Assembly (NCBI RefSeq): GCF_037055275.1 | Contig: NZ_CP146343.1 | Span: forward strand, 5,115,001 to 5,179,000 | Source: Pseudomonas sp. ML2-2023-3 | Lineage (GTDB): Bacteria; Pseudomonadota; Gammaproteobacteria; Pseudomonadales; Pseudomonadaceae | Direction: 5' to 3' | DNA: 64,000 nt | Shown here: piece by piece, positions 38,145 to 40,893 of the stretch | Layout of the letters: every line of letters starts with the position of its first letter | Numbering within the stretch: the stretch's first letter is position 1 | The notes under the pieces: model-generated | What the model was told of the DNA's origin: nothing | What the model saw: only the letters and a program-made list of their open reading frames with translations | The model's database searches: none | Translations under genes and position numbers: made by a program

Positions 38145-38498
38145 TTATTCGGCTTTCAGGCCATCAGCCGAGACAGCTTTAACGCCTTTGATCTTTTTGG
38201 TGATGGCAACAGCGATGTCTTTTTGAGCTTCGGTCACTGGGACCATCGAGGAAAGGGAAACAACACCTTTGTTTGTCTCAACTTTGATATCGGTGCCCGG
38301 AATGCCTTTTTCAGTCACCAGGTCAGCTTTCACTTTGGTGGTGATCCAGGTGTCAGAAGTGGCTTCCTTGGCTTTAGTTACTTCGCCAGCAGCGACGACC
38401 ATCGGTGCCTGTGTAGTCGCTTGAGCAGCAAATGCAGCGTTGGCCATGGTCAGGGTCAGAGCGGTGGCAGTTGCAGCAGCGATAGCGAACTTCTTCAT
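38145..38498 (-). CDS. BON-domain periplasmic protein (OsmY-like)
   Basis: 117 aa. Sec signal peptide (residues 1-24, MKKFAIAAATATALTLTMAN, cleavage after A-F-A), then one BON domain (about 48-115: TSDTWITTKVKADLVTEKGI ... VSLSSMVPV ... GVKAVSADGL). BON domains bind phospholipid and are linked to osmotic or envelope stress in OsmY; a single domain here makes it about half of OsmY. CAGGAG precedes the start. Its own sigma-54-type promoter lies upstream, after the pnp terminator. Confidence 0.9.
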   Translation of the reverse strand: MKKFAIAAATATALTLTMANAAFAAQATTQAPMVVAAGEVTKAKEATSDTWITTKVKADLVTEKGIPGTDIKVETNKGVVSLSSMVPVTEAQKDIAVAITKKIKGVKAVSADGLKAE

Positions 38499-38562
38499 AC
38501 GAGTAACTCCTGTCTTCTTTAAAATCTGCGCCGTCTTATGGCAGCAGGGTTATCTCTACTAT

Positions 38563-38579
38563 TGCAGGGCCTGTGCCAA
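38563..38579 (-). promoter_or_regulatory. Sigma-54 (-24/-12) promoter of the BON-domain gene
   Basis: On the minus strand TTGGCACAGGCCCTGCA: GG and GC 12 bp apart, nearly identical to the crcZ promoter in this window. The predicted start near 38553 leaves a leader of about 55 nt before the ATG at 38498. Confidence 0.8.
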
Positions 38580-38605
38580 CTTTTTAAGATAAATTAATCC
38601 TTATA

Positions 38606-38618
38606 AATCAATGGCTTA
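38606..38618 (+). promoter_or_regulatory. Candidate IHF site upstream of the sigma-54 promoter
   Basis: AATCAATGGCTTA fits the IHF consensus WATCAANNNNTTR at every position and lies in an A+T-rich stretch (38578-38630). It is about 30 bp upstream of the -24 element, where IHF bends DNA in enhancer-dependent promoters. Confidence 0.6.
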
Positions 38619-38662
38619 CGATTTATCTCCACAATGGCGATCGTGCAGAATGCATGACGCCC

Positions 38663-38679
38663 TGCAAATTTGCATGCAA
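38663..38679. promoter_or_regulatory. Overlapping palindromes, candidate enhancer site
   Basis: TGCAAATTTGCA (38663-38674) is a perfect 12-bp palindrome and overlaps the 10-bp palindrome TTGCATGCAA (38670-38679). More TGCA cores lie at 38644 and 38651. Distance to the predicted start is about 110-125 bp, typical for an activator of sigma-54 promoters. The protein that binds is unknown; it does not match the CbrB-type TGTTAC/GTAACA sites. Confidence 0.5.
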
Positions 38680-38737
38680 GTTGCGGGTTTCCACTCATGG
38701 CCTATCGCCCATTGGCGCTGACTTTTCGTCGCCCATA

Positions 38738-38765
38738 AAAAAAGGATCCCGAAGGATCCTTTTTT
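38738..38765 (-). terminator. Terminator after pnp
   Basis: AAAAAAGGATCC, CGAA tetraloop, GGATCCTTTTTT: symmetrical, so functional in either direction, but placed 23 bp after the pnp stop. Confidence 0.93.
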
Positions 38766-38787: not shown

Positions 38788-40893
38788 TTACGCTTCCGAT
38801 GCCTTGGCAGCAGCTACGTCCTTGATGGACAGCTTGATACGGCCGCGGTTATCCACGTCCAGTACCAGTACTTCAACTTCCTGACCTTCTTTAAGAATGT
38901 CAGTCACTTTCTCAACGCGAGCGTCGCTCAGCATGGAGATGTGAACCAGGCCGTCCTTGCCAGGCAGGATGTTTACGAATGCGCCGAAGTCGACGATACG
39001 CTCAACCTTGCCCACGTAGATCTTGCCGATCTCGGCTTCAGCGGTGATGCCCAGAACGCGCTGACGCGCTGCTTCTGCAGCTTCTTTGGTTTCGCCGAAG
39101 ATCTTGATCGAACCGTCGTCTTCGATATCGATCGAAGCTTTGGTTTCTTCACAGATTGCACGGATGGTCGCGCCGCCTTTACCGATGACATCACGGATTT
39201 TGTCGGTGTCGATCTTCATCGCAATCATGGTCGGAGCGTTGGCCGACAGTTCGTTGCGCGATACGGCAATGATCTGGTTCATCTGACCCAAGATGTTCAG
39301 GCGAGCGTCCAGAGCTTGGCCCAGTGCGATCTCCATGATTTCTTCGGTGATGCCCTTGATCTTGATGTCCATCTGCAGCGCGGTAACACCTTTGGCGGTA
39401 CCGGCTACTTTGAAGTCCATGTCGCCCAAGTGATCTTCGTCACCCAGGATGTCGGTCAGGACAGCGAATTTCTCGCCTTCTTTAACCAGACCCATGGCGA
39501 TACCGGCAACCGGTGCCTTCATCGGAACACCAGCGTCCATCAGTGCCAGGGAAGCACCACACACCGATGCCATCGAGCTGGAACCGTTGGATTCGGTGAT
39601 TTCCGATACAACACGGATGGTGTACGGGAACACGTCGGCAGCAGGCAGCATGGCCTGAACCGAACGGCGGGCCAGACGGCCGTGACCGATTTCGCGACGA
39701 CCGGCGCCACCCATACGACCACACTCACCTACCGAGAACGGAGGGAAGTTGTAGTGCAGCATGAACGGGTCTTTTTTCTCGCCTTCCAGGGTGTCCAGCA
39801 GTTGTGCGTCACGGGCAGTACCCAGCGTTGCAACAACCAGAGCCTGAGTTTCACCACGGGTGAACAGAGCAGAACCGTGGGTCTTCGGCAGAACACCTAC
39901 TTCGATGTTCAGAGGACGAACAGTCTTGGTGTCACGGCCATCGATACGCGGCTTGCCGTTTACGATGTTTTCGCGAACGGTGCGGTATTCGATTTCGCCG
40001 AAAGCAGCTTTGACTTCGCTGGCAGAAGGCTGGCCTTCTTCACCGGACAGCTTGGCTACAACCTGATCCTTCAACTCGCCCAGACGTGCGTAACGGTCTG
40101 CCTTGACGGTGATGGTGTAAGCCTGGGAGATCGCTTCGCCGAACTCGGCACGGATAGCGCCCAGCAGTGCGGTAGCTTCCGGGGCAGCAGCCCAGTCCCA
40201 CGTTGGTTTTGCAGCTTCGGCAGCCAGCTCTTTGACAGCCTGGATCACTACCTGGAATTCGTCGTGGGCAAACAGTACTGCGCCCAGCATCTGGTCTTCG
40301 GTCAGCTCTTTGGCTTCCGATTCAACCATCAATACGGCTTCCGAAGTACCGGCAACGACCATGTCCAGGCTCGAAGCAGCCAGTTGCTCGTAAGTCGGGT
40401 TCAGCAGGTAGCCGGTGCTTTCGTGGTAAGCAACGCGGGCAGCGCCGATCGGACCATCAAAAGGAATACCGGAGATAGCCAGGGCTGCCGAAGTACCGAT
40501 CATCGCAGCGACGTCCGGATCGGTTTTCTTGCTGGTGGACAGAACGGTGCAGACAACCTGCACTTCGTTCATGAAACCTTCTGGGAACAGCGGACGGATC
40601 GGACGGTCGATCAGACGCGACGTCAGGGTTTCTTTCTCGGAAGGGCGACCTTCACGTTTGAAGAAACCGCCTGGGATTTTACCCGCGGCGTAGGTTTTTT
40701 CTTGGTAGTGAACAGACAGAGGGAAGAAGCCCTTGCCTGGATCAGCTTGCTTGGAGCCGACAACAGTCACCAACACGCTGACGTCGTCGTCAACGGTGAC
40801 CAATACTGCGCCGGAGGCCTGACGGGCGATACGGCCAGTCTCTAGAGTAACGGTCGACTGACCGAACTGAAATTTTTTGATAACCGGGTTCAC
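38788..40893 (-). CDS. pnp: Polynucleotide phosphorylase (PNPase)
   Basis: 3'-5' phosphorolytic exoribonuclease of the degradosome, 701 aa. Two RNase PH-like domains (the second with [15 protein letters not shown] and the catalytic Asp in [18 protein letters not shown]) are followed by a KH domain ([16 protein letters not shown]) and an S1 domain ([24 protein letters not shown]). Downstream of rpsO across a 230-bp spacer containing a long hairpin, it probably autoregulates through it as in enterobacteria. Confidence 0.98.

Follow-up and report, generated by a model that had tools for sequence, protein, structure and literature searches.

OsmY-type genes are usually controlled by stress sigma factors. 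In a stretch of 64,000 nucleotides from Pseudomonas sp. ML2-2023-3, referred to below as the window, a gene for an OsmY-like BON-domain protein lies next to pnp, and the question raised by this locus is which sigma factor and which activator serve it. A preliminary description had proposed a sigma-54 enhancer-type promoter in front of the gene, and this main claim holds: the GG/GC pair of the promoter is kept in all 109 distinct upstream regions compared. The features of the locus are, in their order towards the BON gene:

38788..40893, minus strand: pnp (polynucleotide phosphorylase; Pfam RNase_PH, PNPase, KH and S1 domains), upstream neighbour of the BON gene
38737..38765, no strand assigned: terminator-like inverted repeat GGATCC-CGAA-GGATCC bordered by runs of A and T, which separates the BON gene from pnp (read in the sequence)
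38671..38685, minus strand: putative distal activator box CGCAACTTGCATGCA, conserved across BON upstream regions
38641..38657, minus strand: putative proximal activator box TCATGCATTCTGCACGA, conserved across BON upstream regions, the same box type occurring elsewhere in the genus
38606..38618, plus strand: IHF consensus site AATCAATGGCTTA, fitting WATCAANNNNTTR at all positions
38563..38578, minus strand: -24/-12 sigma-54 element TGGCACAGGCCCTGCA, matching the consensus at 9-10 of 11 letters in all 109 upstream regions
38552..38553, minus strand: predicted transcription start, about 12 nt past the GC of the -12, placed from the position of the -12
38526..38547, minus strand: leader hairpin CTGC-T-GCC-ATAAGAC-GGC-GCAG at the 5′ end of the predicted leader (from leader folding)
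38507..38511, minus strand: Shine-Dalgarno sequence AGGAG (read in the sequence)
38145..38498, minus strand: BON-domain (OsmY-like) protein of 117 aa with a single BON domain (PF04972, E 2.2e-13) and, by eye, a signal-peptide-like start; the ATG start codon is at 38498

The elements named in the preliminary description, i.e., the overlapping palindromes TGCAAATTTGCA (38663-38674) and TTGCATGCAA (38670-38679), the IHF site AATCAATGGCTTA (38606-38618), the -24/-12 element, written there as TTGGCACAGGCCCTGCA (38563-38579, minus strand), and the start codon at 38498, are all present at these positions. At sigma-54 promoters transcription requires RpoN and starts about 12 nt after the GC, and the activator sites are usually paired and located 80-150 nt away. 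Paired upstream sites, as well as an IHF site between them and the -24, are both found in the sequence of this locus. The layout shares with NtrC-type, IHF-assisted sigma-54 promoters the exact GG-N10-GC arrangement, the paired upstream sites and the intervening IHF site.

The conservation of these elements was analysed for 116 BON loci, of which L085, containing a partial gene, was dropped; the remaining 115 upstream regions collapsed to 109 distinct ones, which span Pseudomonas BON proteins down to 45% identity and keep the layout with few departures. The host is close to the P. fragi/P. bubulae group, the BON proteins of L031-L035 being 97-100% identical. The best -24/-12 candidate was selected against TGGCAC-N5-TTGCW within at most 330 nt upstream. 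All 109 sequences have a GG and a GC doublet separated by 10 nt, with a TGGCA core (TGGCAC in 103, TGGCAT in 6), at the position expected; the element lies 78-90 nt ahead of the ATG with the exception of L013, where the start is misassigned. Seven further BON promoters beyond the 109 contain TGGCAC or TGGCAT in five cases, TGGCGC in G378 and TGGCGT in G243. The counts for the boxes and the IHF site are anchored on the -24/-12, which is therefore present by construction, and are compared with one single-base shuffle per sequence: the proximal box, with at most one mismatch to GCANNNTGCAYGA, is found in 106/109 upstream regions (0/109 shuffled), the distal box, as GCANSTTGCAYGCAG with at most three mismatches, in 102/109 (1/109 shuffled), and the IHF site, with at most one mismatch, in 100/109 (4/109 shuffled). 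The two boxes are spaced by 31 nt in 96 of the 102 sequences having the distal box. A distance of 40-41 nt separates the IHF site from the -24 in 104 of the 109 regions, and the proximal box is 75-77 nt away from the -24 in the 108 of 109 that were scored. This nearly rigid spacing differs from that of sigma-54 promoters with NtrC-type activators. Taken together, the stretch looks like a real and widely conserved sigma-54 promoter of a gene for a small exported-type protein in Pseudomonas.

The same comparison modifies the picture of the enhancer. The -24/-12, the IHF site (100/109) and an activator box (106/109) are co-conserved as anticipated, whereas the palindrome TGCAAATTTGCA is not kept in relatives. 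What is kept is the part reading CGCAACTTGCATGCA (38685-38671); the neighbour TTGCATGCA, which overlaps TGCAAATTTGCA, is conserved, and TGCAAATTTGCA is not the conserved element. An enhancer centred at about -115, as originally drawn, has to be replaced by two boxes at about -97 and -126, of which the better conserved proximal box (38641-38657) had been overlooked.

Conserved blocks between two genes could in principle belong to an RNA or to the 3′ region of pnp instead of a promoter. The leader does fold: a hairpin with at least five pairs is present in 97 of 97 distinct leaders (mean z -2.5, by folding), with a sequence that varies between species, and the CAGGA of the Shine-Dalgarno region is invariant in 35 aligned leaders. 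RNAalifold gave no consensus structure for an alignment of 35 of the 97 leaders, though each leader folds singly, and no covariation is therefore claimed for the hairpin. Against an assignment of the blocks to an RNA or to pnp, the boxes are set apart from pnp by the terminator-like repeat, and the blocks are found also where no pnp is seen nearby and in front of unrelated genes. No pnp is found within at least 1.4 kb upstream for 47 of the 109 regions, and boxes, IHF site and -24/-12 are conserved there too, so that the promoter is kept without a pnp neighbour. This explanation is considered to have almost no chance of being correct. Separately, a GGA is located in the hairpin loop of 21 of the 97 leaders; an RsmA-type site is therefore possible in some species, and none is seen in the host.

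A second possibility is that a sigma-70, AlgU or RpoS promoter drives the BON gene and that the sigma-54 elements represent a minor promoter. The usual stress-sigma control of OsmY-type genes speaks for it, as does an AlgU-like pair with 2 mismatches of 11 in 9 of the 109 upstream regions. What is conserved between the genes, however, is the set of boxes, IHF site and -24/-12, and the AlgU-like pair (AlgU alone was scanned across relatives) is not conserved. AlgU control as such was rejected on the basis of the 9/109 count. We regard a sigma-70, AlgU or RpoS promoter as the main promoter of the gene as very improbable. The comparison with enterobacterial OsmY is also instructive at the protein level. 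Like OsmY, the protein is of an exported type with a BON domain (PF04972), and OsmY is its best match in an NCBIfam search, but with 51.6 bits it falls far short of the cut-off of 174. Unlike OsmY, for which the model has 206 positions, it has 117 aa and one BON domain, and its promoter is of the sigma-54 type, whereas OsmY is under RpoS-type control. In L024, L028 and L029 (G004, G017 and G031) the gene encodes a two-domain version, with a second BON match in one frame of 219-225 aa; the promoter layout in this group is as usual. An osmY/BON-domain gene, PFLCHA0_RS26215, is among the mutated genes given in a study of rhizosphere evolution of P. protegens (PMC8262913).

The promoter architecture is not confined to the BON gene. 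The strict pattern GCA-N3-TGCA-N64..66-TGGCAY-N7-GC was scanned in 59 Pseudomonas genomes and was found at 197 places in 57 of them, compared with a single place for the reversed pattern; the AlgB-containing genomes G013 and G027 have no strict match. In the host genome the pattern occurs four times and its reverse not at all, which shows that the arrangement of box, spacing and promoter exceeds chance. The four host targets are the BON gene and the genes for a DUF3509 protein, a 307-aa protein and an 83-aa protein. The downstream gene was inspected at 96 distinct places among the fetched loci, out of the 197, with families recognised by short motifs. Six families account for 76 of these 96 places: DUF3509 proteins (25), a ∼300-aa protein (19), BON proteins (14), a ∼75-aa protein (12), hemerythrin-domain proteins (5) and the algB-side small protein (1). 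Pfam confirms one member each of the DUF3509 (E 1.3e-27) and hemerythrin (E 1.4e-19) families and gives no match for the tested members of the ∼300-aa family and the two small families, whose membrane-bound look is judged by eye. The remaining 20 places lie outside the six families; in 10 of these the spacer G+C exceeds 50%, so that they perhaps reflect chance. Likewise, some GC-rich pattern matches in AlgB-containing genomes, including the sole match of G301, are probably chance. L265, L267, L277, L280, L281 and L290 contain AT-rich places where a full box and a -24/-12 precede genes that belong to none of the six families; these are possibly further targets in other Pseudomonas groups. In L202 (G072, reverse strand, positions 2472 and 4597) two DUF3509 copies about 2.1 kb apart each have the architecture in front.

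Which activator recognises the boxes was approached through the enhancer-binding proteins of the host. Using AlgB as a query, 23 activator loci were found, and their 1.5-kb flanks were compared within the host genome. For this comparison a weight matrix was trained on 143 sites, including the window site and no algB flank; left out of the training were sites with a spacer G+C above 55%, L180, L213 and L215, as well as own-genome and other loci judged to be chance (L117-L122, L127, L128, L130-L134 and L139-L159). The window site scores 53.3, a value that is not independent since the site belonged to the 143-site training set; elsewhere in the 64-kb window the highest score is 6.5. With 23.0, algB ranks first among the 23 activator loci, and none of the remaining 22 exceeds 7.6. 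The algB-side site precedes the gene divergent from algB (C1:893091-894431) and combines a palindrome of the TCGTGCA type with another box, a stretch resembling an IHF site, and TGGCATGGCACCTGCA. It is seen in the weight-matrix scan only; the stricter pattern, run over the host activator loci, did not find the algB-side site, the box of which has one departure, GCG for GCA. In G062 and G063 strict sites flank the algB-kinB locus on both sides.

The scan was extended to 43 algB flanks, comprising 40 newly fetched ones and L213, L215 and L260. Distances of 73-77 nt only were admitted, and the spacing observed at the algB flanks is therefore partly imposed. Scores range from 6.0 to 42.0, with 25 of the 43 flanks at 15 or above and 18 below 15, of which 7 are below the best control value of 7.6. 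The best site precedes a frame of 93-100 aa in 33 flanks, of 273-291 aa in nine and of 54 aa in one. All nine of the 273-291-aa frames contain three BON domains according to Pfam. Such a triple-BON gene is a near neighbour of algB in L215 (6822-7658), L310, L313, L318, L320, L321, L327, L331 and L338, which connects AlgB with BON proteins a second time.

Domain matches support the naming of the algB locus. Host AlgB contains response-regulator, sigma-54 interaction and Fis-type domains, which makes the candidate activator similar to those of NtrC-type systems; many of the relatives listed carry the name AlgB in their source records, and an NCBIfam search with host AlgB gave no match above the cut-off. 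As in the known KinB-AlgB system, AlgB adjoins a kinase with a KinB sensor domain (Pfam KinB_sensor, E 7.5e-32), the periplasmic part of which matches PDB entry 3kkb (E 8.9e-10). NtrC and CbrB are not supported as activators: by eye, their half-sites differ from the TCGTGCA-N3-TGCACGA type of box found here, and among the 23 host activator loci only the algB flank has the architecture. The earlier remark that the palindromes are unlike CbrB sites is borne out by this comparison by eye. The link to nitrogen/carbon status that had been drawn from RpoN control is unsupported, because the evidence points to AlgB. PA4738, PA4739, PA5481 and PA5482 show a joint decrease in one list for P. aeruginosa (PMC3557286). 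This would fit co-regulation if these genes are those of the pnp side and the algB side, PA4739 presumably being the pnp-side BON gene and PA5481/PA5482 the algB-side genes. AlgB belongs to the NtrC class of regulators and has a GAFTGA motif (PMC6932827), and a joint KinB and RpoN regulon has been published for P. aeruginosa (Damron 2012).

The distribution of AlgB offers a further comparison. A match to AlgB at 1e-140 is present in 376 of 398 genomes of the genus. Of the 22 AlgB-minus genomes the 20 listed were compared with 24 AlgB-plus genomes chosen for similar size: any strict match occurs in 21/24 AlgB-plus versus 4/20 AlgB-minus genomes, a co-loss that is not fully independent because the AlgB-minus genomes may represent few clades. 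The matches in the AlgB-minus genomes are GC-rich only in G276, one GC-rich and one AT-rich in G215, and one AT-rich each in G144 and G239. A short BON orthologue was not found at 1e-10 in 16 of these 20 genomes and is kept in four, G239, G378, G287 and G276. The BON promoter is intact in G276 and G287, which are real exceptions to the co-occurrence unless algB is split there. It is also intact in G239, the genome of which is 86% complete, and in G378 the boxes are kept and the -24 is changed to TGGCGC. The triple-BON-type gene has the composite promoter in 3/3 AlgB-plus and 0/3 AlgB-minus genomes, with orthology assumed and the three AlgB-minus cases maybe from one clade; the flanks fetched for these three loci contain no algB match. 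G100, a genome of 6.6 Mb, yields neither an AlgB match (1e-140) nor a BON match (1e-10) and lacks the strict pattern.

These data bear on the possibility that the RpoN promoter is driven by another of the 22 further enhancer-binding proteins of the host and that the algB-side genes are merely further targets of that protein. Targets need not adjoin the gene of their regulator, and the BON promoter is intact in two genomes, G276 and G287, without detected AlgB. Yet none of the other 22 activator loci has the architecture within 1.5 kb, a site near algB was read in 43 flanks, weak in some, and the strict match is found in only 4/20 AlgB-minus compared with 21/24 similar-sized AlgB-plus genomes. 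A different activator is thus unlikely, and the BON gene is most probably transcribed from an RpoN promoter driven by AlgB, as part of an AlgB-RpoN regulon of small envelope-type proteins across Pseudomonas.

The sequences themselves show the -24/-12, the IHF site and the boxes at their respective distances, the reappearance of this arrangement ahead of other genes and its presence next to algB, and they suggest how AlgB-dependent activation may proceed. RpoN (sigma-54) holoenzyme would occupy the -24/-12, and AlgB would bind to the pair of boxes, which lie about three helical turns from each other at about -97 and -126. IHF would bend the DNA between the boxes and the -24/-12, bringing the activator to the promoter, where its ATPase would open the sigma-54 complex. 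KinB, as partner kinase/phosphatase, may modulate AlgB, and the regulon would include the genes adjoining algB. A role in envelope maintenance is suggested for the target proteins by their domains and the appearance of their sequences.

The sigma-54 promoter is of a known kind; the AlgB operator with its conserved targets may be the new part. A search of openly licensed literature found no report linking this BON gene to RpoN or AlgB, and earlier publication is possible; a word search through the main text of P. fluorescens food-spoiler papers rich in mentions of rpoN gave no occurrence of BON domain, OsmY, DUF3509 or hemerythrin. AlgB is mostly discussed through the algD promoter and alginate (PMC10418997), unlike the candidate sigma-54 targets described here, i.e., BON, DUF3509 and small proteins. 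A mutation of algB in Azotobacter reportedly left the alginate yield unaffected (PMC6979010). We lean somewhat towards the view that the general task of AlgB is not alginate but an RpoN-driven envelope set controlled via the TCGTGCA-N3-TGCACGA operator pair. That this set consists of single and triple BON proteins, DUF3509 proteins, small and ∼300-aa membrane-type proteins and a hemerythrin-domain protein seems slightly more plausible than the opposite.

If AlgB is the switch of this promoter, it would acquire directly controlled sigma-54 targets that are amenable to bench tests: the defined operator, the near-rigid spacing and the short list of conserved targets would allow direct AlgB and RpoN targets to be examined with a few reporter fusions. 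Function by association would become available for uncharacterised families, i.e., DUF3509, the SGVSWGAIFAGA protein and the small proteins of ∼75 and ∼94 aa. If the envelope set is indeed the general task of AlgB, KinB-AlgB would be a two-component system for the state of the envelope, with a sigma-54 regulon that can be read in most Pseudomonas genomes.
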